From positions 124,001 through 188,000 of the forward strand of contig JAFDWX010000006.1 in NCBI GenBank assembly GCA_018268255.1: DNA of 64,000 bases, read 5' to 3'. Below the pieces are notes generated by a model. That model saw nothing but the letters and a program-made list of their open reading frames with translations, made no database searches and was not told the origin of the DNA. This DNA comes from Armatimonadota bacterium. GTDB taxonomy: Bacteria; Armatimonadota; Fimbriimonadia; Fimbriimonadales; Fimbriimonadaceae. The position numbers and the translations under genes are program-made. Shown here one piece after another: positions 5,196 through 48,506 of the stretch. The first letter of the stretch is position 1, and each line of letters starts with the position of its first letter.

Positions 5196-5206
5196 AGCAA
5201 ATGTCC

Positions 5207-8012: not shown

Positions 8013-8151
8013 GATGGATTCAGCGAAATTTCCCTATTGGTCCCAATCACTCAAACCTAGTAAAAATACGGAAAGTGGCCGAGTGGGGTTGGCATAAGGG
8101 GAGTGTGATGGAGTAGACTATCAGTTTGCTCAAATTCCCCCGGAGGCATGA

Positions 8152-11100: not shown

Positions 11101-12198
11101 GACAAAATGGCTGGACGCCACGGCAACAAGGGTGTTATCTCCCGAGTGCTGCCGGTGGAAGACATGCCGATGCTCATGGATGGAACTCCAGTTGACGTGG
11201 TTCTCAACCCGCTCGGTGTCCCGAGCCGTATGAACATTGGCCAGATTCTGGAAACGCACCTTGGGTACGTAGGCAGGAATCTGGGAATTCGATATGAGTG
11301 TCCTGCTTTCGAAGGTGCAACCGAGCACGAAATTCTCAACGAAGTTGAGAAGCTAGCGGAGCATTTCCGGCGAAAGGTCCTCGAGAGCTACGTCAATAGC
11401 GAGCTTGAACTCAATGTCAAGTTCGAATTGGACGATACGCTCGACGGGATGTTTGGAAAGGTCGAGGCGGCACTACGCGCCTTGGATGAACCTCGATTGG
11501 ATCGATTGAGTCGAATCGTGGCAGCTGCTCCGGTCAAGTCAACCGGCGAGATCCTGGACACCGACTACGAAAACTGGGTTCCAGAGGAATTGCCAGAGGA
11601 GATGGGTGCGCCCGCCAAGGCGGAAGACGCCGTCTATGCCGAGATTGTCGCGAAGATTCAGAAGAACACCTTCCGACGTGCAGGGCTTGACCCTGAATCG
11701 TGCAAGTCTCTCCTCCGAGATGGCTTGACTGGCGATGTACTTCCAAATCCGATCACGGTCGGAGTCATGTACATCCTAAAACTGGAGCACTTGGCCGACG
11801 AGAAGATCCACGCTCGTTCGATTGGCCCGTACTCGCTTGTCACTCAGCAACCGCTGGGTGGAAAGGCGCAGTTCGGCGGTCAGCGATTCGGTGAGATGGA
11901 AGTCTGGGCATTGGAAGCGTACGGCGCTGCCTACACGCTCCAAGAGCTTTTGACCATCAAGTCTGACGACGTCATGGGTCGGGTTAAGGCCTACGAGTCG
12001 ATCGTCAAGGGAGAGAGCATCGCCGAGCCGGGTATCCCTGAATCGTTCAAGATTCTGGTGAACGAGCTTCGGTCGCTTTGTCTCAAGGTTTCGGTGGAAG
12101 ATCCTCAAAACAAGGAACTGAACCTGAAGGACTTGGACGAATTGTCCGGTGGCGGAGACGATGTCCGACTTGCTCGATCGGTCGGATTCTTCAACTAA
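8152..12198 (+). CDS. rpoB: RNA polymerase beta subunit
   Basis: The 1348-residue product contains all core RpoB landmarks: the rifampicin-region sequence around SNQLSTFMDQTN (494-506), the RDVHRSHYGRICPIETPEGP block, the PWGGYNYEDAI motif, the GDKMAGRHGNKGVIS catalytic-region block and the C-terminal GGKAQFGGQRFGEMEVWALEA clamp segment. ATG 8152 follows a good GGAGG sequence 6 nt upstream. A lineage-type insertion around residues 925-952 carries four cysteines (C929, C932, C947, C950) as a probable zinc ribbon. At the rifampicin-contact positions it has Thr500 (E. coli Gln513) and Asn513 (E. coli His526). No rplJ/rplL precede it and no rpoC follows; a strong hairpin closes the unit. Confidence 0.98.
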   Translation: MKVIQPTSKRIGRYLEVPNLIELQLNSYKWFLEEGLPELFKTFSPIWDFTQTNYIEFVNFNLGEPKYSLQECRDRDMTFEAPIKATVRFGGRDREEMETEVYLGDLPLMTDKGTFIINGRERVIVSQLSRSPGLYFEEGVDSSMQVIVSARVIPTEGPWLEFESDSNMVVHTQLSQTKKLPLTQLVKALHAFFDSNSPDRLHGRVRYQMAVRDAVRKKIADPIADPDSGEVLVERGSILTKKLMATLPEGALDQVISVETPLGSNEEILWAAGEEITLEKPTHEDLIGLRPVDDIKEGSNLIIAKLQVIDKDVARKIESLELDSINLLKVPQLISNTLEVDKTSTMREAIIDIFKRLRPGEAATEDAAKQLIYNQFFEIKRYDLGKVGRRFLNKRLHIDVPQQVRNLTSDDLFAMMIAMEPYIAKDAERDDIDDLRNKRVRSVGELLQSQLRLGFVRMEKVARERMTSADQDNLLPGIILSVKPVSASIKSFFSSNQLSTFMDQTNPLSELTNKRRLSSLGPGGLQRTSAKLEVRDVHRSHYGRICPIETPEGPNIGLISQLTTHARVDEYGFIMTPYRKVVDGKVTEDIIYLTAQEDFTFRIAPADLPTDSEGFINVDRVQVRCPGGDREFGGASYPIVPKNSVDLVDISPVQIISVATALIPFLENDDANRALMGANMQRQGVPCLRSDAPIVGTGYERTAAVDSGAAIVALKSGYVEAVTSNTITVRNEEGNLDSYDLMHMVQSNKSTCFTHRPVVWPGQRVLKGDPLADGPTCDNARLALGQNVVVAFMPWGGYNYEDAILISERLVKDDVYTSIHIERHETEAVDTKLGPEEITRDIPNVGEDALKDLDENGIIRIGAEVRPEDILVGKVAPKGQTEMTAEERLIIAIFGKKAEETRDVSLRLPHGEKGTVVDVKTFSRYKYECTNCKHVYKESKKRESLICDRCDSSLIQLPGDELPAGTNMTVQVYIAQKRKLMVGDKMAGRHGNKGVISRVLPVEDMPMLMDGTPVDVVLNPLGVPSRMNIGQILETHLGYVGRNLGIRYECPAFEGATEHEILNEVEKLAEHFRRKVLESYVNSELELNVKFELDDTLDGMFGKVEAALRALDEPRLDRLSRIVAAAPVKSTGEILDTDYENWVPEELPEEMGAPAKAEDAVYAEIVAKIQKNTFRRAGLDPESCKSLLRDGLTGDVLPNPITVGVMYILKLEHLADEKIHARSIGPYSLVTQQPLGGKAQFGGQRFGEMEVWALEAYGAAYTLQELLTIKSDDVMGRVKAYESIVKGESIAEPGIPESFKILVNELRSLCLKVSVEDPQNKELNLKDLDELSGGGDDVRLARSVGFFN

Positions 12199-33489: not shown

Positions 33490-36400
33490 TTACTCGTTGG
33501 AGGCGGAGGTCAGGGCGTCGGACATCGAGCCCTTCTTGGACTTAAGCACCGAGAAGATCAGGAACAGGATTGATACCGCTGTGATGATGATCCGAACGGT
33601 GTTATCCATGGGCTGGATAATTGTCGGAGCAAGAAGCAGAGCAACCAAGTTCATAACCTTGATGAGCGGGTTAAGCGCGGGACCGGCTGTATCCTTGAAC
33701 GGATCGCCAACGGTGTCGCAGACCACGCCAGCTTTGTGAGCTTCCGTGCCCTTGCCACCATGGAGGCCGTCTTCGATGAGCTTCTTGGCGTTGTCCCACA
33801 TGCCGCCTGAGTTGGCGAGCAGAACAGCCATCAGCTGACCCGAGAGGATCGTTCCAGCAAGGAATCCACCCAAAGCCTGTGCACCCGTCAGGTTGTACAT
33901 GTGGCCACCGATTGAGACTGGATCCTTTCCGATGGAGAAGCCAAATGCAACTGCAACGGGGAGGAAGATGGCCAAAATGCCCGGTGACAGTAGCTCGTTT
34001 TGAGCTGCTGCAGTGACGATGCTGACGCATCGGCCGTAATCGGGCTTGCTGGTCCCTGCCATGATTCCCGCATCCTCACGGAATTGGCGTCGCACTTCGT
34101 TAATTAGCGCGAATGCTGCGCGACCCACCGCGTTAATGCTAAACGCGGAGAAGACAAACGGAGCAGCTCCACCAATCAGAAGACCGAGGAAGATCTCGGG
34201 GACCTCGAGGCGAAGTCCAGCGCTGGTCAGCATCGCTTGTTCCACGTAGGAGTGGAACAATGCGACGGCAGCAACAACGGCGGTCGCGATTGCGAAGCCC
34301 TTGGTGAGTGCCTTGGTCGTGTTGCCAGCGGCATCGAGTCGCTGAACGACCTTGGACGCCTCGGGATTGCCCTCACCGGCTCCAGACATCTCAAACACGC
34401 CTTGGGCGTTGTCCGAGATCGGTCCGAAGGTATCCATGGCAAGGATGTAGCCCGTAGTGGTCAGAAGACCAAGGCCGACGAGAGCGATGCCATAGAAGCT
34501 GAGGAGGTAACCGCCGAACTCAGCAGCGGGGAACACATAAAGCGGGGCGAGCAGTGCGACCACGATGGCGAGCACTGAAAAAGCGCTCGATTCGAGACCG
34601 TAGCTGAATCCCTGGATAATCATCGGGGCGGGGCCAGCAGACGCGACGTTCGCAATCTCTTGCACCGGTCGTCGGTGGGTTGAGACATAGTAGTCGGTCA
34701 TTCGCTCGAAGGCGTAGGCCATAACGATACCGATGACGATACAGAGAAGGAATCGCCACCACTCAGCCGTGATCATGGTCAAGGCACCGGTTTGGATTCG
34801 ATCCTGAGCAGGAGGCGTAGCACCCTGCTTGTTGGCTCGCATATCCTCGGTGTACTTCTTAACTTCGGCAACAGGAGCCTTGAAGAAGCTCTGTACGCCT
34901 AGTCCGAGTCCCTTGGATACATCAAATCCGTCTCCGATTCCCCATGCCAGCTTTCCTTCTCGCGAAGCCATCAGCTTGGCTGGAAAGGTCTCTTTGGTGA
35001 TCTCAACCTTGAGACCAGGATTGGACTTCTTAGCGTTTTCGATCACGCCCTCAATCGTTTTGAGGTCTGTGGGGCCGAGGTAGTAAGGAGTAGCCTTTGG
35101 CGCGGTTGGTCCCGAAGCTTGGCCTTGTGTGACCATGACCTTGTAGACCTTGGGAGCCGTGGCTGGGTCGGCGAACTTCTTCATGTAGTCGCCGAGCGAC
35201 ATGTACTCTGGCTCAGCCTCTCCACTTTGGGGAGGAATTGCCACCGTGTACGCCATCGCCGGGTTCTTAGTGTCGTTCGGATCAAGCACGGAATATCCGG
35301 CGAGTTTCGCATCGTCTCGGACTTCTGGTCTTTGCTCCTCGGGCTGAGTCAGGACGCTGTTGACCATCATCTCGCGATCTTGGTCCGTAAGACCAAGAGC
35401 CTTGAGTTTGGGGTCGGCGTCGATGACTGTCTTCAGATCGGCAACAGTCTTGATCTTGTCGAGATCTTCTTTCTTGAGTTGGTCAACCGACTTTTTCGCA
35501 AGAGCTGCCGCGGCCTTCTTTTGGGCTGCCTTGACGGTATCCCACATTTCGAGGTTGGCTTCAGCTTGCGATTTGAGTTTGGCTGCTTGGATCAACTGAC
35601 CCTTCTGACCGCCCATCATAAAGAATGCGAGGACACCCGTAAGAACGGCTGCGATAGCTGCCGAACGGAGGAAGCCCGCGGAGATGGGTTTGAGTGCGTC
35701 AGCATCGACATCGTTCGAGCCGCGTACCATGAAGATGCCCAAGATCGAAGCGATGATTCCAACGCCGCGAGCAAGGAGCGCGAAGAGGATCAGCTTCATC
35801 CATGTCGACTGATCGAACATGACGGAAGTAGCGGCGCCGAGCACGATGGCTGCGACAAGCGTGACTTCGTAGGATTCGAAAACGTCTGCGGCCATACCGG
35901 CGCAGTCACCCACGTTATCGCCCACATTGTCGGCAATAACCGCTGGGTTGCGTGGGTCGTCTTCCGGGATTCCGGCTTCGACCTTTCCAACAAGGTCTGC
36001 TCCGACGTCGGCGGCTTTGGTGTAGATACCACCACCAACTCGCATAAACAGAGCTGCAAGCGATCCACCAAATCCGAAGCCCACAAGGAGCTTCATAGCT
36101 TCCGCCTGGGCGATCAGGAAGATCAGCGTTGCGCCGATGAGACCCATGCCGACTGTGAACAGGCCGGCAACACCTCCGGAACGGAAGGCGATGTCAAGCG
36201 GCTTGCCTGCACTCACGAGTGACGCAGCGGCAGTTCGCATGTTGGCTTTGACCGCCATGCGCATGCCGGAAAAACCTGCGATATAGGATGCCGCGACGCC
36301 CGCGACAAAACAACCAGCAACAGCTAACGACAGAGTCAAGCCGTAGGTGTTATAGTACATTCCCACAAGCAGTGCGGCGATGATGATCACAAAAATGACC

Positions 36401-36726
36401 ATCGTGGAAATCTGTCGTTTGAGATAGGCCATGGCGCCGTCGAAGATGGCACCGCCGACTTCCTCCATTTTCTCGCCGCCCGTGCTTTCTTTGTTGAGCG
36501 AGCCCATCAAAAGAAGCGCGACGATGATCGCGAGTGCTCCGATAGCGAGAGAAACGAAGAGGAAGATTCGGTCTTGAGAAGAAAATTCGAGTCGGACATC
36601 GGCCTCACCGCCAGCTGCCGCCGCAAAAGCGGGCATCAGCAGAGAGATGAGAGAAACGAGCATGACCTTCATAAGGCCGCTCGCGCGTTTCGTCCATGTC
36701 CGCGCAGTCATGGTCATCCTGGACAT
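33490..36726 (-). CDS. hppA: Membrane-bound proton-translocating pyrophosphatase with large insertion
   Basis: HppA couples pyrophosphate hydrolysis to ion pumping across the membrane. The catalytic motifs are present: GGGIYTKAADVGADLVGKVE, the DNVGDNVGDCAGMAADVFESY block and the late DTVGDPFKDTAGPALNP. The GNTTKALTKG sequence has Lys where K+-dependent enzymes have Ala, which marks the K+-independent, H+-pumping subclass. With 1078 residues it is about 300-350 longer than usual: residues about 372-640 form a Lys/Ala-rich soluble insertion (from GGQKGQLIQAAKLK to about TGALTMITAEW) between two helices on the external side. ATG 36726 has no clear Shine-Dalgarno sequence, and an in-frame ATG at 36672 begins a signal-like helix. 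Confidence 0.93.
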   Translation of the reverse strand: MSRMTMTARTWTKRASGLMKVMLVSLISLLMPAFAAAAGGEADVRLEFSSQDRIFLFVSLAIGALAIIVALLLMGSLNKESTGGEKMEEVGGAIFDGAMAYLKRQISTMVIFVIIIAALLVGMYYNTYGLTLSLAVAGCFVAGVAASYIAGFSGMRMAVKANMRTAAASLVSAGKPLDIAFRSGGVAGLFTVGMGLIGATLIFLIAQAEAMKLLVGFGFGGSLAALFMRVGGGIYTKAADVGADLVGKVEAGIPEDDPRNPAVIADNVGDNVGDCAGMAADVFESYEVTLVAAIVLGAATSVMFDQSTWMKLILFALLARGVGIIASILGIFMVRGSNDVDADALKPISAGFLRSAAIAAVLTGVLAFFMMGGQKGQLIQAAKLKSQAEANLEMWDTVKAAQKKAAAALAKKSVDQLKKEDLDKIKTVADLKTVIDADPKLKALGLTDQDREMMVNSVLTQPEEQRPEVRDDAKLAGYSVLDPNDTKNPAMAYTVAIPPQSGEAEPEYMSLGDYMKKFADPATAPKVYKVMVTQGQASGPTAPKATPYYLGPTDLKTIEGVIENAKKSNPGLKVEITKETFPAKLMASREGKLAWGIGDGFDVSKGLGLGVQSFFKAPVAEVKKYTEDMRANKQGATPPAQDRIQTGALTMITAEWWRFLLCIVIGIVMAYAFERMTDYYVSTHRRPVQEIANVASAGPAPMIIQGFSYGLESSAFSVLAIVVALLAPLYVFPAAEFGGYLLSFYGIALVGLGLLTTTGYILAMDTFGPISDNAQGVFEMSGAGEGNPEASKVVQRLDAAGNTTKALTKGFAIATAVVAAVALFHSYVEQAMLTSAGLRLEVPEIFLGLLIGGAAPFVFSAFSINAVGRAAFALINEVRRQFREDAGIMAGTSKPDYGRCVSIVTAAAQNELLSPGILAIFLPVAVAFGFSIGKDPVSIGGHMYNLTGAQALGGFLAGTILSGQLMAVLLANSGGMWDNAKKLIEDGLHGGKGTEAHKAGVVCDTVGDPFKDTAGPALNPLIKVMNLVALLLAPTIIQPMDNTVRIIITAVSILFLIFSVLKSKKGSMSDALTSASNE

Positions 36727-36880
36727 ATTTTGGATAGAGACCCCCTAGGTTCTGTTATGCAGATACGGGTAAGCCGTAACCGCAAATTCCCAGTGAGGAT
36801 ACCCAAGTTCAATCAAGTTCAACAAATCTGTCCGAATTCGACGCAGATTCAGTCCGAAGCCGTATTACGAAATCCCTGAG

Positions 36881-37606
36881 TTATCCAGGTCTGGATTCAC
36901 TAAACTCAGCGACTGCATCCATGTGCGACAGATCTTTCTGAAGCATTTCTGCTTTCATTCGAGGAATTCCCGTAAGGAGGGTCGCTGGCAAATTCCCCAA
37001 GATCTCCTTAACTTGATTGCGGTTAAGCGCTAACAGATGCTGTAAATGTTGGATGAGTTGTTCACTCTTGGCATTGCCCTCACGCAAGACCAAATCGTAA
37101 CGAGCAGTATCCTGCTTGAAGCTGTAGGTGTGGGCAGCCGCTGAACCTGATTGACCTTCGGCAACGGCGATCGGTATTTCGCGGTCGCACGATTCGCAGA
37201 TCAAGCCAACCGATTTCTCCGAGTAGTAATTCAAGGTGTTGCAGAAACCGCACCTCACTTGCGAGACACGCAATACTCGGCCTTCCACAATCGGCATCAG
37301 CCGATGGCATTCCGTACAGGTTTGGTCGTCGGCGGGAGTGTCTGTATAGGTGTTCTTGGCGTGGCAATAGGGACAAGAAATAACGGTTCCCGGTGGTACT
37401 TTTCGGCACTCGTTGTAGCAGAAAATGGCGTATCCCAGAGCCGCAAGCCCTGCAAGAAGAAGCAAAATGCCGAGGTACATCAACATGCCCCGGTAATAGA
37501 CCATCAGGCCACCAAGAAGGACGGCGACGACGCCACCGATCCCATACTGAAGCATCAAGACGCTATACGTTTCAACAACATCGGACCTTCGCTGGACTTG
37601 CGACAT
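36881..37606 (-). CDS. Membrane protein with two zinc-ribbon domains
   Basis: About 241 residues with two adjacent helices (YGIGGVVAVLLGGLMVYY and YLGILLLLAGLAALGYAIF) and then a cytoplasmic or external part with two cysteine pairs, CPYCHAKN...CTEC and CGFCNTLNYY...CESC, that look like zinc ribbons. The C-terminal region is helical and soluble. No family is recognised. It lies downstream of the ECF sigma operon on the same strand, 77 nt away, so a shared role is possible but unproven. ATG 37606 is preferred; an upstream GTG at 37618 is in frame. Confidence 0.6.
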   Translation of the reverse strand: MSQVQRRSDVVETYSVLMLQYGIGGVVAVLLGGLMVYYRGMLMYLGILLLLAGLAALGYAIFCYNECRKVPPGTVISCPYCHAKNTYTDTPADDQTCTECHRLMPIVEGRVLRVSQVRCGFCNTLNYYSEKSVGLICESCDREIPIAVAEGQSGSAAAHTYSFKQDTARYDLVLREGNAKSEQLIQHLQHLLALNRNQVKEILGNLPATLLTGIPRMKAEMLQKDLSHMDAVAEFSESRPG

Positions 37607-37694
37607 AGCAAAACTCACTCATGCCCGGAAGACATATTCCCTAAGAGCATTCTACAACTGAGGACGGACAAAACCAAGAAGATTTGTCAGGGTC

Positions 37695-38477
37695 CTATCG
37701 GTAGATTGTCGGCAACTCGTCCGGTTGTCTGCTGGGTTGAGTGGATGGCGAAGCCGGAACCACGAGAAAGTGGCCCGGTTCTTGGTCGAAAACCGTGAAG
37801 TTGAGGCTCTGAGCAAGGGCTTTGAGAATTGCCCCGGGGCTTCGGCCGAAGTAGTCGGCTTCCACAATCTGATCCTCAAACCCGGGCGCTACTTCTATTT
37901 GGCAGTGACCGCTCGCGGCGATGAGTTTGAAGGCATCCAGCAGGCTAACACCTCTCAGCTTGACCGTGATGGGAGCATCCCAAGGTTTGGCATCGGTGTC
38001 CCTATGGTCGGGTGCCTGATTGTCGGGCGACTGGGACCTTGTCGGGTCGTTACTCACCGAAGGATTGGGAGAGGTCTCGGTCCGTCTCGTGTCGGCCCTC
38101 AGAGGTGCCTCGTCGCCGAATCGAGACGTAGTGGTCTCACGTACTTGCGAAGGTGCTGGAGCCACCGGTGCGGGTGATTGACTGCCGAGATACTTTCCCA
38201 GGGCCAAGCCAGCGAACGCTACGCCGGCGAGCAGAAACGCGGGCACTGCGGTGCGCCAGATTGGACGTCTGGATCGCACTTCAAGCAGTTGCGGAGCAAA
38301 CGGCTTTGCCGTGCCTCCCGGTTTGGACTCCCGAAGTCGATGCACCATGTTCGCGCGATGCAGAACCTCTTGACGCAACTCCGGATACCGGGTGCAGAAC
38401 TGCTCGATCGAATCGGCATCTTGACCTTCGGCGAGTTGCCACATAAGGGCATCAGTGGCGGGGGAAGGACCTTTCAT
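37695..38477 (-). CDS. Membrane protein with extracytoplasmic STN domain, candidate anti-sigma factor
   Basis: The 260-residue protein has an N-terminal soluble part (about 1-75), one helix (TAVPAFLLAGVAFAGLALG, about 76-95), a Pro/Ser/Asp-rich linker and a C-terminal secretin/TonB short N-terminal (STN) fold (about 170-240; ITVKLRGVSLLDAFKLIAA...). This is the topology of ECF anti-sigma factors: cytoplasmic part holding the sigma, external part sensing. The first 70 residues show no clear ZAS zinc motif, so the anti-sigma role is inferred from the 4-nt overlap with the sigma gene. Confidence 0.7.
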   Translation of the reverse strand: MKGPSPATDALMWQLAEGQDADSIEQFCTRYPELRQEVLHRANMVHRLRESKPGGTAKPFAPQLLEVRSRRPIWRTAVPAFLLAGVAFAGLALGKYLGSQSPAPVAPAPSQVRETTTSRFGDEAPLRADTRRTETSPNPSVSNDPTRSQSPDNQAPDHRDTDAKPWDAPITVKLRGVSLLDAFKLIAASGHCQIEVAPGFEDQIVEADYFGRSPGAILKALAQSLNFTVFDQEPGHFLVVPASPSTQPSRQPDELPTIYR

Positions 38478-39037
38478 CGAGAAATCTCCTCATAAATCTT
38501 GCGAAACCGTTCTCGTGCTCGGAACAACCGAGTTTTTGCTGCATTTGCACTACAGCCCAATGCCTGGCCCACCTCAGCTAAGTCCAAATTCTGCCAGTAG
38601 AAAAGCGTCAAAACGGCGCGATCCTCGGGCCCGAGCTGACCCAGTGCAGTATCGATGTCGGTGAAGTCGTCCCGAGATTCGGCAACTGGAGCAACGACTT
38701 CCGAGGCCAATTCGATCGGCTGCTCGCGCTTTCGCCTCGATAGAGTGCGCCCGTGCTGAATTGCCCGGTTCACCGTGATCCGAAAAAGCCACGTGCTGAA
38801 TTTGCTCCGACGATCGAACCTCACAAGGTTCCGGTAGATGGACGAGAACACTTCCAGCGTAACATCGTCGGCATCGTCAGAGGTGGGAAGAATTCCGCGA
38901 GCAATCTGGAAAACCCTGTCGGAGTAGCGTTGGTAAAGCTGATCGAACGCGGCACCATCGCCACGCAGATATCTCTCGATGAGTATGGTGTCTTCATCGA
39001 AAAAGGTCTGTCGCGCTGAATTCAGGAGGCTTTGCAC
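38474..39037 (-). CDS. ECF-family RNA polymerase sigma factor
   Basis: About 187 residues with sigma region 2 (YQRYSDRVFQIARGILPTSDDADDVTLEVF...) and region 4 (LGPEDRAVLTLFYWQNLDLAEVGQALGCSANAAKTRLFRARERF), linked by a short spacer; regions 1 and 3 are absent, as in ECF (sigma-E type) factors. GTG 39037 is chosen because GAGG lies 5 nt before it; an adjacent in-frame TTG precedes it. The stop overlaps the start of the STN-bearing membrane gene, so sigma and partner are made together, and the sigma presumably controls its own operon. Confidence 0.92.
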   Translation of the reverse strand: MQSLLNSARQTFFDEDTILIERYLRGDGAAFDQLYQRYSDRVFQIARGILPTSDDADDVTLEVFSSIYRNLVRFDRRSKFSTWLFRITVNRAIQHGRTLSRRKREQPIELASEVVAPVAESRDDFTDIDTALGQLGPEDRAVLTLFYWQNLDLAEVGQALGCSANAAKTRLFRARERFRKIYEEISR

Positions 39038-39094
39038 CAATTCCTCTATCGGACGCCGTCAGGCTTACTGAGGTTACGAGTTGTGGCCCAAATC

Positions 39095-41296
39095 TCAGCC
39101 GTTTCCACCTTCAGACTGTCTAAATTTGGCTCGTGCTGCTTCGATTTCCGTAACGTAGGCTTGGGGAAGGTCGTGCCAATCTTTGACCGGTTTGCGCTCT
39201 CCGCGCTCAGGATTCACAAATTGGCGGACCACTCGCACACCTTCCGCTACTCGATAGATGATGCTGAGCCTCTCTTCCACAGCAGGTGTAAATTCAACAA
39301 AAGTGATTTCTCCGTTGCCAGCAGTCTCCATCTGGTTGAGCATCTGCGCGAACTGAACCAAACCCATGGGATAGGTGAAATCCTGTCCATTCTGCTGGCG
39401 GATCTTGGTTGAAATCATCTTGGCGCTCGACGACTTACCCTCGAGATAGCCATCTCCAGGGAGGCCCGTTGGAAGGCAGATTGTCGGCTCCCGCATCGCG
39501 TCAGCAATAACAACCGCCTTGCTTGGGTCAGGTGCCACTTCCGCCGGGATCGGCACATCGTAAGGATCCCAGTTGTTCACGTCAGCCTCATCGTTAAACG
39601 TGAGGTTTCCTTCTGGCCCGTAGACAAATCTCCCCAGCTGGCGACGAGTTTCATCACCGAGCAACCTGATTGGAATCGATTTGCCCTGTCGGAGTTCGTC
39701 AAGTTGGCCTTGAGTCAGGCTTCCGTAGAGGTCTAGCCAGGAATCAAATAGGTTACGGGACATTCCACCCATCAAGTAGGCCGGGTTGGTGATCCACAGG
39801 TACATCACATAAAGGGAGAACGAGAACTTTCCGTGGGTGGCGATCGCTCTGGGTGCTAGTTCATCCAGACCAAGTTGGTCGTGTTCTACTTGCGAAAGAT
39901 ATTCTTTGAGATCGGCTCTATCGATGAAGAGCGAGTCTTGGACTGGCTCATAGGGCTCGACAGTCATCCAATCCGAGTCCTGTTGAACGATGAGGTTGCC
40001 CTCCGGAGAGACCAGTTTTTCAACCCATTGCTCGTTAATGTTCACCTCGCCGCCAGTAAAAGCAAGAAGCATTGCGTCATCTGGAACTACGGCGATGAGG
40101 TTTTTCCCGACCTTTGCAGCGTTGTGGCGTAATCCATCCGCGACAATCGAATCGTTCGGATCAAATACGGTTGGATCGAAATACTTCTTTGCTTCTGCTG
40201 GCACTTCCCCGGAGATCGTCATCCCGCCCTGCATAATTTCCGAGATTCGGCTCATGAGGTATTCGCTAAAGGGGGAAAGCTTAATCTTGGTGCTTTCAGC
40301 GGGAGCCTTAACCGGAGGATCCTCGGGCACCTCGTCTTCATAATCTTCCACCTCTCCGCCATATGGGTTGTTGATGTTGGCTCGGACCGTGGTTGAAGCC
40401 ACATAATTTCCCTGGGCGTCATACCCACGAAGCTCGACAGTCCTCGGAGACCACATCAACTCTCCCGGCACCGAATAGATCATCAGAACAACACTGACGG
40501 GACCTTGCTTTCGAGAAATTGGCTCGGGTCCTTCTTGCATGAGCGCGCTCTCCTTAGCCGCTTGAGCGGGAGCCGAATCGCCTTCCGTCATCGCTGGTTC
40601 TGGCTCTTCACCTTCGTACTCGCCAGAGACCTTCTGAGCAATTTCCTGAGCCTGGACCTGCTCCTTTTGCAACGCATCAAGAATTCCTGCCACCTTGGCC
40701 TCGAGCTTGCGCTGCATCTGGGTGGGATGGTTTGAGAAAACAATGCGCGTCTCCGCGTTCATGGACGCCAGAAATGGGATGTCAATAAACTTCGCCAACC
40801 GCGCTGAGGCGCGAGCATTGGGTTCCCACTTGCGCCACTCCTTTGGGTCCACCGGATCGTTCTCACCGCTGGAGTAGCTCTTCCGGAGCATTCCTTCGTA
40901 CTCGGAGCTATCCCAAGCCGGGACCTCGGTTGAATAAGACTTGTCCAAATGCGCCTTGATTCGTTTTGCTCTGAGGGATTCCGCTCGTTTTCTGGCTTCG
41001 GTGTACTTGCGAGCTGAAGGCCGCAATTCAAGATACGTTTCCTTGTTGGCCCATTCCGCTTGCGTGAGGTCCGCGACCTTGTCTAGAACTTCGTTGATAG
41101 GCTTACCATCGGATTCCACCAACACAATTACGTTCTGGAGCGACTTGGAAGCCCGCAGTTCCATCCCAAGGAGCTTTGAAAGCTCGGGAAGGCTCTTGCT
41201 GATCGGTTGAGCAGGCAAGCTGATATGAACTGGCCCGGACTTGGGAGCGGCGATAGGCTGAATCGCGATTACTGCTGCGAGAATAGAACCGATCAT
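39095..41296 (-). CDS. Large secreted protein with N-terminal STN-like domain
   Basis: The 733-residue protein starts with a signal peptide (MIGSILAAVIAIQPIAA) and an STN-like segment (about 25-95; QPISKSLPELSKLLGMELRA...) of the kind found at the start of secretins and TonB receptors. A Lys/Arg-rich helical stretch follows, then a long region with no recognised domain. Near 190 it has FSNHPTQMQRKLEAKV, which matches YHPTRMQRQLPAN in the paralog at 46275. The ATG has AGGAAG about 11 nt upstream. It is next to the ECF operon (58 nt upstream of the sigma start), so it may be a target or cognate surface component. Confidence 0.7.
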   Translation of the reverse strand: MIGSILAAVIAIQPIAAPKSGPVHISLPAQPISKSLPELSKLLGMELRASKSLQNVIVLVESDGKPINEVLDKVADLTQAEWANKETYLELRPSARKYTEARKRAESLRAKRIKAHLDKSYSTEVPAWDSSEYEGMLRKSYSSGENDPVDPKEWRKWEPNARASARLAKFIDIPFLASMNAETRIVFSNHPTQMQRKLEAKVAGILDALQKEQVQAQEIAQKVSGEYEGEEPEPAMTEGDSAPAQAAKESALMQEGPEPISRKQGPVSVVLMIYSVPGELMWSPRTVELRGYDAQGNYVASTTVRANINNPYGGEVEDYEDEVPEDPPVKAPAESTKIKLSPFSEYLMSRISEIMQGGMTISGEVPAEAKKYFDPTVFDPNDSIVADGLRHNAAKVGKNLIAVVPDDAMLLAFTGGEVNINEQWVEKLVSPEGNLIVQQDSDWMTVEPYEPVQDSLFIDRADLKEYLSQVEHDQLGLDELAPRAIATHGKFSFSLYVMYLWITNPAYLMGGMSRNLFDSWLDLYGSLTQGQLDELRQGKSIPIRLLGDETRRQLGRFVYGPEGNLTFNDEADVNNWDPYDVPIPAEVAPDPSKAVVIADAMREPTICLPTGLPGDGYLEGKSSSAKMISTKIRQQNGQDFTYPMGLVQFAQMLNQMETAGNGEITFVEFTPAVEERLSIIYRVAEGVRVVRQFVNPERGERKPVKDWHDLPQAYVTEIEAARAKFRQSEGGNG

Positions 41297-41412
41297 TGCG
41301 GTGAAAACTTCCTATCCACTATAACGCGCGAAGGGGCGGATTTTGCGTGAGAATCTCTACTATTTGTCGAAACATCTCGACGCAGCCATCGTTCCCACCA
41401 TGATCACCGGCT

Positions 41413-42423
41413 TTAGTATCGAATCAGGCGCTGCGCTAACTCAACGATTTGGTTCACGCTCGGAAGAACGAACAGTTCCAAAGGTTTCGCCCAAGGAACC
41501 GGCGTATCCATTCGAGTCAACCTCAGGGCCGGTGCATCCAAGTGTTCGAATGCGATCTCGTTGATTCGTGCGACCAACTCTCCTGCAAAACCACACGTCT
41601 TGGGCGCCTCGTTCACCACCAACACTCGATTCGTCTTGGATATTGAGGATTTGATAGACTCTTCGTCCAACGGAACTAAGGTCCGGAGGTCGATAATTTC
41701 CGCTTCAAGCCCCTGCTCGGCAAGAATGTCAGCAGCCTTGAGGCAGTGGTAGACCGTCTGGCCGTAGCTGACCAGCGTGATGTCTTTACCGGCTCTGCGA
41801 ACACTGGCTTGCCCGAACGGGACGGTGACGTCCCCTTCCGGAAGCTCTTCCTCGATATCACGAAGCCGGTAAAGCTCTTTGATCTCATAGAACAGCACCG
41901 GATTCGGATCTCTCAGGGCGGTCTTCATCAAGCCTTTGGCATCGCTGGGAGTTGAAGGACATACGACCTTGATTCCCGGCGAATGGGCAAACCACGCCTC
42001 GTTCATTTGGCTGTGATAGAGGGCTCCGCCGCCATATGCCCCTGCGGGACCTCTGAGCGTGACGTTCAGTGCAACCTCACCTGCGGTGCGATAGTGGTAA
42101 GTCGCCATGTTGTTAACGATCTGGTCGAATCCACACGAGATGAAGTCTATGAACTGCATCTCCGCCATCACAGCCTTCCCTTGGAGAGCCATGCCGACTG
42201 CAGTTCCAACGATTGCCGCCTCGCTGATCGGAGCGTCGATCACACGTTGAGTGCCGTACTGCGCCTGGAGTCCTTCTGTAACACCGAAGGCACCTCCCAA
42301 AATGCCAATGTCCTCACCGATGGAAATGAGTCCAGGATTGAGACCCATTTCCTCATAGATCGCTTCCTTGATCGCAGTCAGATAGTTCTTCTTGATGCCG
42401 ACCTCGTGAGCTACCGTCGCCAT
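41413..42423 (-). CDS. pdhB: 2-oxoacid dehydrogenase E1 component, beta subunit
   Basis: A 336-residue transketolase-like subunit with GEDIGILGGAFGVTEGL, the EMQFIDFISCGFDQIVNNMA segment and VNEAPKTCGFAGELVARI. With E1 alpha it decarboxylates pyruvate or branched-chain oxo-acids in the cytoplasm and passes the acyl group to the lipoyl E2. The ATG follows the alpha stop without a gap (TAA/ATG), so translation is coupled. Confidence 0.93.
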   Translation of the reverse strand: MATVAHEVGIKKNYLTAIKEAIYEEMGLNPGLISIGEDIGILGGAFGVTEGLQAQYGTQRVIDAPISEAAIVGTAVGMALQGKAVMAEMQFIDFISCGFDQIVNNMATYHYRTAGEVALNVTLRGPAGAYGGGALYHSQMNEAWFAHSPGIKVVCPSTPSDAKGLMKTALRDPNPVLFYEIKELYRLRDIEEELPEGDVTVPFGQASVRRAGKDITLVSYGQTVYHCLKAADILAEQGLEAEIIDLRTLVPLDEESIKSSISKTNRVLVVNEAPKTCGFAGELVARINEIAFEHLDAPALRLTRMDTPVPWAKPLELFVLPSVNQIVELAQRLIRY

Positions 42424-43560
42424 TTATGCACCCTCCCGAAAGACCCACATTCCGCCTTCCTCCGGCGATGGGTCAGGTGATTTGAGAGCAAAGTCCACTC
42501 CGCGTTTGAGATAAGCGACAACCTCGGGTGGGAAATCCTCGTCGGTTGTTTCTCCGGCAGATTTGTTCTCGGCTTTGTACTTTTCCGCTTCGGCATTGGT
42601 GAGATAGCCCTTTTCGACGAGATAGCTCTTGCAGACCGCGATAGGATCTCGATTGCGCCCGCGCTCCACCTCTTCGACGGGCCTATACTTTGCGGCTCGG
42701 TCGTCGTCGTGGTCCCCGTGTCCGTATGCACGGAAGGTTTTGCACTCGACGATGCTCGGCCCTTTCCCTGATCGGGCATAGTCAACCGCTTCCATCACCT
42801 TATCATAGACATCGAACACATCTTGCCCATCGGCAATCGATCCGGGGATCCCGTACCCGTCTGCTCGACGAGCGAAATCCTGCAGCGGATACTCAAGGTG
42901 AGTTGGTGTACCGTAAGCCCAGTGGTTGTTCTCGATAATCGTCACGACAGGCAATTTGTGAACCGCGGCAAAGTTGATGGCCTCATGAAACACCCCCTGC
43001 GCAGTGGAACCCTCGCCATTGTAGGTGAGGATCACCGCGTCGCCTCCGTCTAATCGGTCCGCGTAGGCAACTCCAGCCGCAACGGGAATCGTGCCAGCAA
43101 GCATCGAGGTCGAATGGATGATGCCAGCGGACTTCTTGCCGATGTGCGACCAGTTGTCCCGCGCGCGTCCGGGCGATCCGGATTTACACCAAACCTGAGC
43201 GCAAACCTCCTCAATGGACATGGCTCTCCGGTCCGGATTGTCCCAGCCACTCCTCAAATCCTTCATGAAGAAGGCAGGCATGTCCCGGTGAATGGGCGAA
43301 ATCCAGTCGGTCGACTTGAGGCCGAACAGAGAACCTACAAGAACGGCCTCTTGATTGTGCGAACTGTACAGCGTGCCGCGGAGGCGCCCTCTCTTCTTCT
43401 CCTTGATCAGTCGGACGTCAAAGTACCGAGCAAGATAAAGCTGTTTGAGGATTTCAAGGTGATCTTCAGGGGTCAGCAACGTTCGAGGGAGTCGCTGCTC
43501 TCCTGGGGCCGCGTCGGCGGCTTTCGATTTGGCTGAACTGGCTGTGGGTGTCAACGTCAT
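42424..43560 (-). CDS. pdhA: 2-oxoacid dehydrogenase E1 component, alpha subunit
   Basis: A 378-residue ThDP-dependent subunit. The ThDP motif is YNGEGSTAQGVFHEA to ENNHWAYGTP. The region SPIHRDMPAFFMKDL resembles branched-chain oxo-acid E1 as much as pyruvate E1, so the substrate is left open. The first about 25 residues are Ala/Ser-rich and possibly flexible. GGAGA lies just before ATG 43560, a short spacing. Confidence 0.92.
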   Translation of the reverse strand: MTLTPTASSAKSKAADAAPGEQRLPRTLLTPEDHLEILKQLYLARYFDVRLIKEKKRGRLRGTLYSSHNQEAVLVGSLFGLKSTDWISPIHRDMPAFFMKDLRSGWDNPDRRAMSIEEVCAQVWCKSGSPGRARDNWSHIGKKSAGIIHSTSMLAGTIPVAAGVAYADRLDGGDAVILTYNGEGSTAQGVFHEAINFAAVHKLPVVTIIENNHWAYGTPTHLEYPLQDFARRADGYGIPGSIADGQDVFDVYDKVMEAVDYARSGKGPSIVECKTFRAYGHGDHDDDRAAKYRPVEEVERGRNRDPIAVCKSYLVEKGYLTNAEAEKYKAENKSAGETTDEDFPPEVVAYLKRGVDFALKSPDPSPEEGGMWVFREGA

Positions 43561-43696
43561 TCTCCGAACACGCGACTGCGTGCCAATCTGTAGGGAAGCT
43601 AAAAGAATACCTAAACGTATAGTTTCATCGCAATCCGGACGATTTGCTCACAATATGTACACGGTTCATATTCTCGGCTCTTGTTCCATAAGAAAA

Positions 43697-43729
43697 AAGC
43701 CCCTGGTCCCTTCTAGGGGCCAGAGGCTT
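43697..43729 (-). terminator. Rho-independent terminator after the thioredoxin fusion gene
   Basis: A stem of AAGCC...GGCTT, CTGG/CCAG and CCC/GGG with one C-A mismatch and one T-G pair closes a 5-nt loop (arms 43697-43710 and 43716-43729). The minus strand continues with TTTTTCTTAT. It lies 20 nt past the stop at 43750. Confidence 0.85.
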
Positions 43730-43749
43730 GAAAAGTTGACTGAAAGTGG

Positions 43750-44727
43750 TCAGTTTCCAACAATTTTTCGAATTTCCGCAAGATACTCCGCGACAGGCAC
43801 GTAGCCCACAAATCGACCGATCTCGGCACCGGTGTTGTCGGTGACAATCGTCGTTGGCATGGCTTCGATGTTGTACTTTTCTGCAATGTCCTTTTGGGCA
43901 TCGACATCGATCTTGAGGAAGACAAATTCCTTGGAGAGAGCCTTGAACTCTGCTGTTGAGTGGACATTCTTCTCCAGCATCTTGCACGGACCGCACCAGG
44001 TTGCGAAGCAGTCGATCAGGACCTTGCGGTTCGTCTTGGTAGCTTCAGCCAACGCAGCGTCGTAGTCGGTGAACCAGTCGGCAGATGCCAAATCAGCTTC
44101 CTGAATTTCCTTGCTGCCCTCTGGAGCTTTGAGGGCAAATGCGTCTTTACTTGCATCGGCCTTGAGGAGCAGCGACGTGAAGTCGATGACGCTTGTCTTA
44201 TCGCTGGTTGTGAGTTCGATCGTATTCTGCTTGAGATCGCCGTTACCTGCGAACAGGAAGGTCAGGGTCTTACCAGTGTTGGAATCGACCACGGTCTTGA
44301 CCGGCGTAAGTTCCATTCCTTTTCGGCGGACTTTATCGCCAACGGTGGCGGCGAGGTTGTCATAGGCGTTCTCGGAGAAGAACGGTGCCCACATGCGGAG
44401 CGCAGGCTCGGCGAACAAGTTTTGGATGCCAGTTGCATCGACAGCCTTGGTGTAGTGCTCTTTTTGGGCTTTCATAAAGACCATCATCTGGTCTCCATTA
44501 ACCGTGATCACCTTGCCTGGCATGTCGATCTTGACCATGTTCGGCTTGGCAAGTTGAACCTTGTAAGTCCCCTTAGAACCACCGATTTCCTGAACGGTAT
44601 AGCTTGCTTCCAACGCGTTGGCGCTATGGATAGCGCTGACATACTTTGCGAGCGGGGCTGGGAGCGATGCTGATGCGAGTGCAGATACTGTGGCGAGAGC
44701 CACGATAAGAACTGTCTTTGCCTTCAC
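43750..44727 (-). CDS. Secreted LolA-like domain fused to thioredoxin domain
   Basis: From GTG 44727, with GGAGGAATTTC just before it, the product is 325 residues: a signal peptide (KTVLIVALATVSALASA), a LolA/DUF2092-like beta domain (about 25-200; KGTYKVQLAKPNMVKIDMPGK...) and a C-terminal thioredoxin domain with ATWCGPCKM (about 235-243) and cis-Pro in MPTTIV. The LolA fold normally carries lipoprotein acyl chains. The fusion could bind a lipid or lipoprotein and reduce its cysteines; this is inference. The open frame runs to 44841 but the earlier residues are not credible. Confidence 0.8.
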   Translation of the reverse strand: MKAKTVLIVALATVSALASASLPAPLAKYVSAIHSANALEASYTVQEIGGSKGTYKVQLAKPNMVKIDMPGKVITVNGDQMMVFMKAQKEHYTKAVDATGIQNLFAEPALRMWAPFFSENAYDNLAATVGDKVRRKGMELTPVKTVVDSNTGKTLTFLFAGNGDLKQNTIELTTSDKTSVIDFTSLLLKADASKDAFALKAPEGSKEIQEADLASADWFTDYDAALAEATKTNRKVLIDCFATWCGPCKMLEKNVHSTAEFKALSKEFVFLKIDVDAQKDIAEKYNIEAMPTTIVTDNTGAEIGRFVGYVPVAEYLAEIRKIVGN

Positions 44728-44839
44728 GAAATTCCTCCAGTTGTATAGCGTTATTACTATACTGATTATTCTACAGGCGAAAATCCCTTCGGCCCCTCTT
44801 TTCTGACCGCAATTTTCAGAACAAGCCCATAATCTCCCC

Positions 44840-46216
44840 ATGACGCCCTCGCGGATGTTGCTAGTTGTCCTGCTGCTCTATGTTGTTTTGGCAAGCGCAT
44901 TCAACTTGGCAACACCGTATCGAACGCCAGGGATTTTGCTTCTCCAACGGGGGGCAGATGGCGGGCCGCTTCCAGTTGCTGACGTGGGAGCGCCCGATGA
45001 GCGACAACACGCGAATTACATCCAATACTTACGTGAGAACCGGTCGCTTCCCGTGTTTAAGCCGGGTGCGGCAGACCTGTACGAAACGTATCAGTCGCAC
45101 CAGCCCCCACTCTATTACATCACCGGCGCGATTTGGTCGGCAATGACGGGTGCGGTTCCCGTTGATCCAGAAGCTGGTTTCCGCCTCCGCTTTCTCAACA
45201 CGATCTTTGGAGCGTTGACCCTGATCGGAATTTACTGCTGCGCGACTTGGAGTGGTGAAGGTCGAAAGATGTGGGGCGTTCTCGGAGCTGCTATCGCAGG
45301 TCTTATGCCGATGTTTATGGCACTGCACGCGGCCGTAAGCAACGATCCAATGCTGATATGCCTATGCACATGGGCATTTGCATACATGATTCGGCTGGAT
45401 CGTACCGAACTCGGCTGGAAACACTGGATCATGCTCGGGACTTTGTTGGGCGCGGCGATGATCACCAAAACGACCGCATTGGGGTTGATTCCTCTGGTCG
45501 GTGGGCTGGTGTGGGTCAATCGAAGCAGGCCTGGGATCTTGCTCCATGCTGGAAGCGCCGTTTTGCTATCAATCTTGATAGCAATGCCAGTTTGGATTCG
45601 GAATCAATCACTTTATGGCGATTTATTCGCACTTAAAGCGTTCCGCGAGGCGTTCACCGGGAACCCAACGCGCGAGCAAATGATCCAGATGGTCCAAATG
45701 ATGCGTGAGGCAAAAGGACTGAGCCCAGCTGGTGCCCCCCAGGACTATTGGTTGAACTGGTTCGGCTGGTGGACTCTGCGAAGCTTCTTCGGCGCGTTCG
45801 GCCAGATGGATATCTTCTACGGTCCGAACATTTACCGTGGACTCGGAGCTCTGGTCGGGTTGACCGGTGTTGCAGGCTACCTGCGTAAGCGTTCTGTGGG
45901 AAAAGGTGACGTGGAGACGGATGGTCACTACTCCACCCTAGCGTGGCTTTTCGTCGCGATCATCCTCCTGCTGTTCCTGCAGTTCAATCTGACGTACTTC
46001 CAAGCCCAGGCACGATATCTCTACCCCGCTGTAGCACCCATCAGCCTGGGAATTGCGGCCGGCATCTTGGCTCTCGCCGGACGATATCGCGCGACGGCTG
46101 TTTGGGTCGTGATCTGCAGCATGGCATCCTGCGGATGGCTTACGCAGGACTTTCTAAAGGGCCAGTTTGCGATTCGATTGTTGCCGCAGGGACATCAATC
46201 TCAAGAAAAACAATAA
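44840..46216 (+). CDS. GT-C-type polyprenyl-phosphate sugar transferase-like membrane protein
   Basis: A 458-residue protein with about ten helices. The first external loop has GAPDERQHANYIQYL, an acidic Asp-Glu motif with a following His, then YQSHQPPLYYI, a pattern of ArnT/PMT-like glycosyltransferases that use lipid-linked sugars. The acceptor is unknown. ATG 44840 has no Shine-Dalgarno sequence; CATAAT lies 6 nt upstream. It ends about 58 nt before the next STN-protein gene. Confidence 0.75.
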   Translation: MTPSRMLLVVLLLYVVLASAFNLATPYRTPGILLLQRGADGGPLPVADVGAPDERQHANYIQYLRENRSLPVFKPGAADLYETYQSHQPPLYYITGAIWSAMTGAVPVDPEAGFRLRFLNTIFGALTLIGIYCCATWSGEGRKMWGVLGAAIAGLMPMFMALHAAVSNDPMLICLCTWAFAYMIRLDRTELGWKHWIMLGTLLGAAMITKTTALGLIPLVGGLVWVNRSRPGILLHAGSAVLLSILIAMPVWIRNQSLYGDLFALKAFREAFTGNPTREQMIQMVQMMREAKGLSPAGAPQDYWLNWFGWWTLRSFFGAFGQMDIFYGPNIYRGLGALVGLTGVAGYLRKRSVGKGDVETDGHYSTLAWLFVAIILLLFLQFNLTYFQAQARYLYPAVAPISLGIAAGILALAGRYRATAVWVVICSMASCGWLTQDFLKGQFAIRLLPQGHQSQEKQ

Positions 46217-46274
46217 ATCGCCCGCGCGAACCTTAACTGATTTTGCGTCCGTAATGTACGCTGAGAAAACTACT

Positions 46275-48506
46275 ATGACCTGTTTGTTGCTGGCCCTGAC
46301 CATAGCTTTCCAACCGGCCCCGGAAACCTCGCCGATCCGTGATGGCAAAGTAACTTACACCCACAAGGCAGACAATGTAATCAAAATCCTGGAGGATTTC
46401 TCTAAAAAGACGGGTTTGCAGCTTGAGGCTGGCAAAACACTTGCCAATACCGTTCTCCTTATCGACGTTGCCGATATCCCACTTCAGGATTTCTACAGCA
46501 GACTCGCATCCGAGTGTGAAGCCGAGTGGACGACAGAGAATGGGAAGTTATTCCTTAAGCAACTTGCTAGAAATCAGGTCAGGAAGTCTAAGGCGGAAGT
46601 AGAACAGACAGCCAAACGATTGCGTGAAGGCATCGATAAGCTTAAGAAACAAGTTCCCACAGATCAAACCGACGAGCAGCTTGAAAAACTTGCTAAGGAC
46701 ATGGGCGTCGCAGAAAAGGCGATGCAGGAATACGATGGCAATGGCGAATATCCCTGGCAAAAGTATCAAAAACTACAAAGCCAGCAACCCATTCGACGTG
46801 CTGCTGTGGAGATCATCTCTCAACTGAGTATCGAACAACTGGCCCAAATGCTTCCTGGAGATCGGCTCGTCTTCACCTATCACCCCACCCGAATGCAGCG
46901 TCAACTGCCAGCCAATTCACAACAAGTTTTCAAGAAATATCTTGATCAACAGGCGAAGTACAGTATCTATCAGCAACAGGTACAGCGCGAGATGCACCCG
47001 GAGTGGTACGGGTCGAGTGGAGACGATTTTACGCCTGTGGCGCCGATAACTGACGCGCGAGATGTTTCTTTAGTGATCGCCCTGCCCGAAGCGCTGAACT
47101 CACCTGCGAATTTTCAGATCAAATTTCAATACGCCGTGCAATATCCTGGTTCGGCAGACGATACCCCCCAGGCCCTGCCTGCAAATTACCAGGCTGAATC
47201 TTTTGATCTAAACCTCACCGAGATGGATCCGGAGACTTTTGCAGATCTTGAAAAGAATTATCACGCTCCGGAAGGTGGTGATAAACCGCTAGAACTTTCT
47301 GCTGAAACCCAAGTGTATATCGACGCTCTTAAGGCGATAAAAGACCCTGCCAAGCGAACAAAGGAACAATTGGATCTGATTGGCAATCCGCAAGTTTATG
47401 AGCCCTTAAGCTACTTACCCAGCGAGATTTTGCTCACGTATTCTAAGTGGAAAAAAGCCCAAGTTCTGCTTAAGATGTCCGATATGCTTTGGATGTTGGG
47501 AGGTTGGGATGGGTTCTTTGAAAAGACCTTGGCCGGCATCGACAAGTTCATGACTGTGTACAGAGAATTTCACGGTCTTGAAATCCGCGATGGTTGGTTG
47601 ATTCAAGATACAAAGCAAGTCTTTTGGGACCAGCTCCCCAAGACCAATCTCAACCGGTCGGAAATTGGGAAAGTGATCCGTGCCTCGATCGCGTCAGGCG
47701 ATTTTGATCTGGACTCTTTTGCAGAGCTCGTTGCGCACACTCCTCGCGAAGATGGCGGTTCATTAAGCCTGGCTGAGCAGGTAATTCGATCCTCTGGGAT
47801 TACGCAGAATCAGTACTCTATGGAGCGAAACTACTCAGTATTACGTTTCTACGGCTCGTTAACTCCTGACCAAAGAAAACTTCTGAGGGATGGGGGATCG
47901 ATACGATATGGCTCCTTGGATAACGCACAACGAGAAGCCGCATTTCAGCTGGTTTTTGGTGCAGATGCTCGGCTGAAGCCGCTCAACCAGGAAAATGTCC
48001 CGGTTCAATCAGGGGATGATAGCTTCTACGAGTACGGAATTTACTCTGACGGAAATCCAGGGAGCGAGCCGACGACCGTTTGGCCAACAGGTTTTCCGGA
48101 TACGGCGGTCATTACCGGTAAGGCCGGGTCCAGTGTTCTGTTACGTCCTATCCGACCCAATCAAGACTATTTTGAAACGTGGACAATCAACACTGCTGGG
48201 CAGCAATTGTACTATTTTGACCACCCCGAAAAGTTTGAATGGATTCGTGACCAAGAGAAACCGACTAAGTTCTCTATCATTAACACATCGGACATGTACT
48301 TCTCGATTCCGATCTCCAAAACACTAACTGCGGAATACCGGATGAGAAATCTCAAACCTGCAGGAAATTCCCAATCGCTTTCCCTGAATGAACTTCCTAC
48401 AGAGATTCAAGCGGCTATTAAAAAGTCCTACGATGAAGCGGCGGCGAGTTACAAGGACTACACGCCAGGCCAAGACTCGATCCCAAGGGCTAAACCCAAA
48501 CCCTAG
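46275..48506 (+). CDS. Large secreted STN-domain protein, paralog of the 39095 gene
   Basis: From ATG 46275 the protein has 743 residues: a signal peptide (MTCLLLALTIAFQPAP), an STN-like domain (about 25-100; KADNVIKILEDFSKKTGLQLEAG), a Lys/Glu-rich coiled region and a long unassigned middle. YHPTRMQRQLPAN corresponds to NHPTQMQRKLEAK in the other paralog, and both contain an LTPDQRKLLRDG or LTQGQLDELRQG segment at a similar place. An in-frame ATG at 46254 is possible. Its stop overlaps livG on the other strand by 4 nt. The exact function is unknown. Confidence 0.65.
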   Translation: MTCLLLALTIAFQPAPETSPIRDGKVTYTHKADNVIKILEDFSKKTGLQLEAGKTLANTVLLIDVADIPLQDFYSRLASECEAEWTTENGKLFLKQLARNQVRKSKAEVEQTAKRLREGIDKLKKQVPTDQTDEQLEKLAKDMGVAEKAMQEYDGNGEYPWQKYQKLQSQQPIRRAAVEIISQLSIEQLAQMLPGDRLVFTYHPTRMQRQLPANSQQVFKKYLDQQAKYSIYQQQVQREMHPEWYGSSGDDFTPVAPITDARDVSLVIALPEALNSPANFQIKFQYAVQYPGSADDTPQALPANYQAESFDLNLTEMDPETFADLEKNYHAPEGGDKPLELSAETQVYIDALKAIKDPAKRTKEQLDLIGNPQVYEPLSYLPSEILLTYSKWKKAQVLLKMSDMLWMLGGWDGFFEKTLAGIDKFMTVYREFHGLEIRDGWLIQDTKQVFWDQLPKTNLNRSEIGKVIRASIASGDFDLDSFAELVAHTPREDGGSLSLAEQVIRSSGITQNQYSMERNYSVLRFYGSLTPDQRKLLRDGGSIRYGSLDNAQREAAFQLVFGADARLKPLNQENVPVQSGDDSFYEYGIYSDGNPGSEPTTVWPTGFPDTAVITGKAGSSVLLRPIRPNQDYFETWTINTAGQQLYYFDHPEKFEWIRDQEKPTKFSIINTSDMYFSIPISKTLTAEYRMRNLKPAGNSQSLSLNELPTEIQAAIKKSYDEAAASYKDYTPGQDSIPRAKPKP

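Follow-up and report, generated by a model that had tools for sequence, protein, structure and literature searches.

The window analysed here, a stretch of 64,000 nucleotides from an Armatimonadota bacterium of the family Fimbriimonadaceae (GCA_018268255.1, contig JAFDWX010000006.1, positions 124,001 to 188,000), raises the question of how an extracytoplasmic function (ECF) sigma factor is controlled by a membrane protein that ends in an STN domain, and whether a secreted protein of 733 residues encoded beside it takes part in this control. The initial annotation had read these three genes as a candidate unit of surface signalling, and all three open reading frames were present at their positions in the window (Table 1). 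We propose that the sigma factor and the membrane protein probably constitute an autoregulated circuit of ECF sigma factor and membrane anti-sigma factor, in which the periplasmic STN domain would serve for contact or sensing. The pair itself, its architecture, the STN folds, the near-universal conservation and the conserved promoter are strongly supported by computation, and the 733-residue protein would be a plausible partner of the STN domain of the anti-sigma factor.

Conservation of the sigma factor and putative anti-sigma factor pair

The sigma factor matched Sigma70_r2 (2.3e-15) and Sigma70_r4_2 (5.3e-13) of Pfam and TIGR02937 of NCBIfam (8.5e-26), and contained only the sigma-70 regions 2 and 4, as expected of the ECF class; its start codon is TTG, with GTG one codon further as a possible alternative. 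The anti-sigma gene lies directly downstream and its start overlaps the sigma stop codon by 4 bp, as in translational coupling, an overlap found in 31/39 aligned loci (window included), and the sigma gene was located directly upstream of the anti-sigma gene in all of the 38 relative loci first checked. Across the family the sigma factors were about 50% and the anti-sigma factors about 30% identical. A single-sequence search with the anti-sigma factor found it in nearly all family genomes, and full-length profile matches (profile E below 1e-25, genomes counted from the result table) were present in 81 of the 85 Fimbriimonadaceae genomes and in 6/8 genomes of the sister family f5, while elsewhere in the phylum the profile matched essentially by the STN part only. 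The four Fimbriimonadaceae genomes lacking the anti-sigma factor were two reduced genomes of 1.5 Mb and two incomplete ones. Therefore, the sigma/membrane anti-sigma pair proposed initially is borne out by the family matches of the sigma factor, the overlap and the adjacency across relatives, and that it is near-universal in Fimbriimonadaceae is strongly supported.

Architecture of the putative anti-sigma factor and its STN domain

Taken alone, the membrane protein gave no meaningful match in Pfam or NCBIfam, and its parts were resolved by alignment of its relatives and by modelling. The N-terminal domain has the motif D.LMW..AE..D..A...F..RYP..R.EL..R..MV..L in the alignment and was modelled by AlphaFold as helices 6-18, 21-30 and 32-50, with a predicted local distance difference test (pLDDT) score of 77-88. 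The zinc motif HxxxCxxC of zf-HC2 was absent from the window anti-sigma factor and its aligned relatives, and a profile search of the N-terminal domain for solved structures gave no convincing match; gene order and architecture nevertheless point to this domain as the predicted sigma-binding part. It is followed by basic residues, by a hydrophobic stretch that also occurs in relatives (modelled at low confidence) and by a proline-rich linker, which is variable among relatives.

For the C-terminal domain, Pfam STN was the top family among the 39 aligned members, with a weak direct match (three members matching, best E 0.0032). Profile-profile comparison by hhalign, whose E-values are pairwise and not corrected for the database, aligned the domain to the Pfam-detected STN domains of the order with 96.8% probability (E 2.9e-10), and the N-terminal domain, as a control, stayed below 1% in the same comparisons. 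The profile matches in the PDB were PilQ and GspD, which were weak and consistent with this assignment. Moreover, AlphaFold modelled residues 170-241 as beta-alpha-beta-beta-alpha-beta-beta with pLDDT of about 90, and the top PDB folds in Foldseek were the putative FecR-type anti-sigma factor 4m0h (E 4.2e-4), the GspD N0 domain 4jtm (TM 0.73) and PupR 6ovk. The profile comparison, the confident model and Foldseek thus agree with the first reading in placing an STN domain at the external end of the membrane protein.

A conserved promoter before the sigma gene

When the upstream regions of 75 sigma genes were compared, we observed the common motif GTAAC-N17/18-CGTC at a fixed distance; in the form GTNAC-N17/18-CGTC it was located at -34 to -41 before 72/75 sigma genes (0.5 expected), and in the sister family f5 it also precedes several sigma genes. 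The motif was found before 1/58 genes of the 733-residue protein's family, here named F10 (0.2 expected), and before 0/57 PMT_2-type, 0/66 zinc-ribbon and 0/40 pyrophosphatase genes of the neighbourhood. Such conservation is strong evidence, at the level of sequence, that the sigma operon is autoregulated, with this very sigma factor as the presumed user of the promoter. The -10 element lies about 12 bp before the sigma start codon in nearly all relatives (window 39038-39055), with a GAGG-like sequence between them, and being so near the start codon it should leave the sigma mRNA a very short leader.

The genes at 39095 and 46275, both of family F10, had been suggested as targets of the sigma factor. 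This expectation failed at the sequence level: neither carries the motif, and the frequency before F10 genes is near that expected by chance. A motif search upstream of the PMT_2-type and 733-residue protein genes likewise gave nothing conserved above shuffles. In the whole genome GTAAC-N17/18-CGTC gave 27 matches against 67 for the reversed control, which is no enrichment, and only the sigma gene's own site among the 27 showed the geometry of the relatives outside a clear gene (judged by eye); a tighter motif was no commoner than the control in 31 genomes. Therefore, the direct regulon may comprise little beyond the operon, possibly together with the zinc-ribbon gene, which has no promoter motif of its own and hence may lie on the sigma transcript.

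The 733-residue protein and family F10

The 733-residue protein (P0003) had no match in Pfam or NCBIfam. Its N-terminus was nevertheless recognized as an STN domain: in hhalign the F10 N-terminus matched STN with 97.5% probability (E 7.8e-12) and the STN domain of the anti-sigma factor with 97.8%, and the elements E23-31, H32-43, E47-49, E57-65, H67-77, E80-84 and E89-93 of a model of low to moderate confidence follow the same order as in the anti-sigma STN domain. The model of P0003 is useful only over about 93 N-terminal residues (mean pLDDT 41). The PilQ N0 domain was the best Foldseek match of this region, and PilQ and PupA were among its PDB profile matches. Indeed, structure prediction, which had been named as the check on the STN assignments, supports the fold with high confidence at the C-terminus of the anti-sigma factor and with moderate confidence at the N-terminus of its secreted neighbour. 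The remainder of P0003 (about 640 residues) matches no family, and no TonB plug (PF07715) was found among the F10 members scanned, so that the view of the protein as one without a TonB or secretin barrel agrees with the lack of any Pfam domain in it.

F10 proteins were present in 81/85 Fimbriimonadaceae genomes, a single genome having as many as 14 matches, and number in the hundreds over the family; the genome of the window holds two only, P0003 and P0001, and the two reduced genomes lack both F10 and the anti-sigma factor. A scan of named close-relative genomes with the 733-residue protein found nothing. Most F10 genes lie far away from sigma genes, and some form tandem arrays, such as the five genes in L207 (4487-15733) and the three genes in L202 (5931-12694), which suggests strong local expansion of this secreted family. 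A single origin of the sigma-adjacent F10 genes was considered and rejected, as the approximately unbiased test against one clade gave p 3e-38, a value to be read with caution given the long branches. Since these adjacent copies are not monophyletic, members of several F10 lineages appear to have occupied the site upstream of the sigma gene.

Neighbouring genes

Table 1. Features of the sigma locus and its surroundings (window coordinates).
Feature	Position	Strand	Basis
ECF sigma factor, 188 residues	38474..39040	-	Pfam/NCBIfam matches; orthologues about 50% identical
Membrane anti-sigma factor (putative), 260 residues	37695..38477	-	4-bp overlap with sigma gene; full-length relatives
Cytoplasmic N-terminal domain, residues 1-53, predicted three-helix, putatively sigma-binding	38319..38477	-	Alignment, model
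Single transmembrane helix, residues about 73-95, then proline-rich linker	38193..38261	-	PIWRTAVPAFLLAGVAFAGLALGKYL after RSRR
C-terminal periplasmic STN domain, residues 168-242	37752..37976	-	hhalign, AlphaFold, Foldseek
ECF-type promoter GTAAC-N17-CGTC of the sigma/anti-sigma operon	39052..39077	-	Between the 733-residue protein gene and the sigma gene; read in the sequence
Secreted protein P0003, 733 residues, family F10	39095..41296	-	Without Pfam or NCBIfam match
N-terminal STN domain of P0003, residues 22-95	41012..41233	-	hhalign, model, Foldseek
Second F10 protein P0001, 743 residues, downstream of the PMT_2-type gene	46275..48506	+	BLASTP against P0003, E 2.8e-24
Membrane glycosyltransferase-like protein (PMT_2; F3)	44840..46216	+	PMT_2 E 2.1e-10
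Membrane protein with CxxC zinc-ribbon-like motifs (F4)	36881..37618	-	77 bp downstream of anti-sigma gene
Membrane-bound H+-pyrophosphatase, usual next gene	33490..36726	-	Named from sequence; downstream order conserved in relatives

In about 53/74 loci a PMT_2-type gene on the same strand lies upstream of the sigma gene, and in about 62/74 the zinc-ribbon gene follows the anti-sigma gene, again on the same strand. The H+-pyrophosphatase has 1078 residues with an apparent long insertion at about residues 370-640, its size is held in the family (about 1060-1200 residues), and the sister family f5 has at the corresponding place a gene of about 900 residues, a possible homologue. Within 33490-48506, the block of E1-beta, E1-alpha, thioredoxin, PMT_2-type and F10 genes is inverted relative to most family members, which leaves one F10 gene by the sigma gene and one by the PMT_2-type gene. 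In the tree, P0001 joins a non-adjacent copy from G001, a genome of the same genus in which this copy lies some 10 kb away from the sigma locus, and the arrangement may therefore predate the species.

STN domains and sigma factors elsewhere in Armatimonadota

In HR16 and Chthonomonas, the sigma gene of the related loci is followed by a zinc anti-sigma gene and then by a separate gene for a secreted protein with two STN domains. In other families, of other classes of the phylum, a zf-HC2 start and an STN end were found in one protein directly downstream of an ECF sigma factor (L367, L371, L377 and L386, with L376 as an interrupted example), and separate secreted proteins with several STN domains follow a zinc anti-sigma factor in L076, L077 and L379, the last with three. 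The loci L367, L371, L376, L377, L379 and L386 were picked by their match to the STN part of the anti-sigma profile and thus show that such layouts exist, not how frequent they are. The zf-HC2/STN anti-sigma factors share with the window locus the ECF sigma factor, the anti-sigma factor, the membrane helix, the low-complexity linker and the C-terminal STN domain, but the Fimbriimonadaceae protein lacks both their zinc HxxxCxxC domain and the additional region that precedes their STN domain. These loci support an anti-sigma role for the Fimbriimonadaceae protein and tie STN domains to sigma regulation across the phylum. A search for relatives with the sigma alignment returned mostly unrelated ECF sigma factors past the first few matches.

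In the genome of the window, one STN domain lies above the Pfam cut-off, in an open reading frame of 895 residues. A pil operon is encoded at 5205-11689 on the minus strand of L231 (G000:C7:194000-207000), with pilM, N, O and P named from sequence and, ahead of a secretin-like gene, a gene for a stand-alone 241-residue STN protein whose tail is Gly-rich; short stand-alone STN proteins of this kind (200-320 residues) were seen in many relatives. One match to the sigma promoter motif, at pilP, lies across the end of pilO and is regarded as a chance match.

Proposed mechanism and alternative explanations

Based on these results, we predict that the anti-sigma factor would hold the sigma factor through its three-helix N-terminal domain, cross the membrane once and present the STN domain on a flexible linker for contact or sensing. 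A change of the STN partner or exposure of the linker may then allow cleavage by an S41-type protease followed by an M50 site-2 protease, which would free the sigma factor to amplify, at first, its own operon; both M50 and S41 proteases are encoded in the genome, and such proteolytic release is therefore possible. The 733-residue protein would be an optional periplasmic component, which may meet the STN domain of the anti-sigma factor by STN-STN contact as in PupB-PupR. Several points weigh against this reading. The N-terminal domain matched zinc anti-sigma domains with a probability of 1.3% only, which is not significant, though in the expected register, and the structural models were built on few sequences (five for the anti-sigma factor and three for the 733-residue protein). 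Moreover, only 14 of about 78 loci (14 genomes) have an F10 gene immediately before the sigma gene, F10 genes in general lack the sigma factor's promoter motif, and two genomes (G011 and G022) keep the anti-sigma factor with no F10 gene at all.

A receptor-free form of surface signalling, in which secreted F10 proteins dock by their STN domains on the STN-tailed anti-sigma factor, set the autoregulated sigma factor in place of a TonB receptor and swap the signal whenever the adjacent F10 gene is swapped, is a tentative proposal. The partner might also be the type IV pilus machinery, through its secretin or through the separate STN protein encoded in the pil operon, in which case the circuit would monitor pilus or envelope assembly and the 733-residue protein would be a mere neighbour. 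We regard this as possible but doubtful: Pfam-STN proteins, many of them secretin-sized, were present in 40/41 genomes searched in the order and are as universal as the anti-sigma factor, the genome's own pil operon (pilM-N-O-P, the 241-residue STN protein and the secretin-like protein) carries STN proteins, secretin STN domains make contacts among themselves and with inner-membrane proteins (PMC11637429), and F10 genes beside the sigma gene are rare; however, the sigma operon and the pil genes have no genomic link except for sporadic pseudopilin-like genes downstream, and several F10 lineages came to adjoin the sigma gene.

A model without a separate partner, in which the STN domain self-associates and sigma activity is set when the anti-sigma factor dimerises or is exposed to proteases, seems unlikely. 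The two genomes that have the pair but no F10 gene would fit this explanation, as would the oligomerisation of secretin STN domains, but STN neighbours recur, namely the F10 proteins here and the separate STN proteins after the zinc anti-sigma factors in HR16 and Chthonomonas. Divergent FecI-FecR signalling with a TonB receptor elsewhere in the genome is highly improbable. It would account for the order of ECF sigma factor, single-pass anti-sigma factor and C-terminal STN domain and for the FecR-type anti-sigma factors among the top folds, but no FecR domain (PF04773) was found in the window protein, its 38 relatives or anywhere in the genome, the TonB plug was absent from this genome and present in only 9/41 family genomes searched, and the conserved promoter precedes the sigma gene, not a receptor gene.

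An STN-tailed anti-sigma factor is near-universal in a family in which most genomes, including this one, show no TonB receptor, and zinc-type anti-sigma factors elsewhere in the phylum have a like layout, which points to STN contacts as a possible link between envelope proteins and sigma factors more generally, independent of iron receptors. In addition, the locus provides a first lead on the large secreted family F10, and the conserved promoter is a direct handle for testing the circuit.

Comparison with known systems

The initial annotation had regarded an STN domain on the anti-sigma side as a departure from FecA-FecR-FecI signalling. This does not hold, since PupR and FoxR already end in an STN domain that binds the STN domain of the receptor, or is so modelled. 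In PupR (6OVK/6OVM) the C-terminal STN domain stands behind an all-beta subdomain, the periplasmic part binds the STN domain of PupB, and the arrangement was described as new (PMC7186176). FoxR is built like PupR, with a modelled STN-STN contact with FoxA and the involvement of Prc, CtpA and RseP, and secretin STN domains touch each other and inner-membrane proteins and form oligomers (PMC11637429). The nearest solved fold to the C-terminal domain of the anti-sigma factor is BDI_1681 of Parabacteroides (4m0h/4m0n), a putative anti-sigma factor, which matches the STN part only (74 columns). The N0 domains of the secretins GspD and PilQ share their fold with both STN domains, but neither window protein has a secretin barrel.

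The window locus shares with PupI-PupR-PupB, FecI-FecR-FecA and FoxI-FoxR-FoxA the ECF sigma factor, the single-pass anti-sigma factor with a C-terminal STN domain and a second protein with an N-terminal STN domain. However, a proline-rich linker takes the place of the all-beta juxtamembrane (FecR) subdomain, the N-terminal domain shows no recognisable relationship, the candidate partner is a secreted protein without a barrel instead of a TonB receptor, and the sigma gene has its own conserved promoter. The window protein thus resembles a FecR-type system in outline, yet is no member of the FecR family by domain, and searches of the open-licence literature on STN domains with ECF sigma or anti-sigma factors and on Fimbriimonas sigma factors gave no account of the arrangement. 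The STN tail itself was already known; what is new here is its occurrence without a FecR domain and without a TonB receptor in the genome, together with a different N-terminal domain and probable autoregulation.

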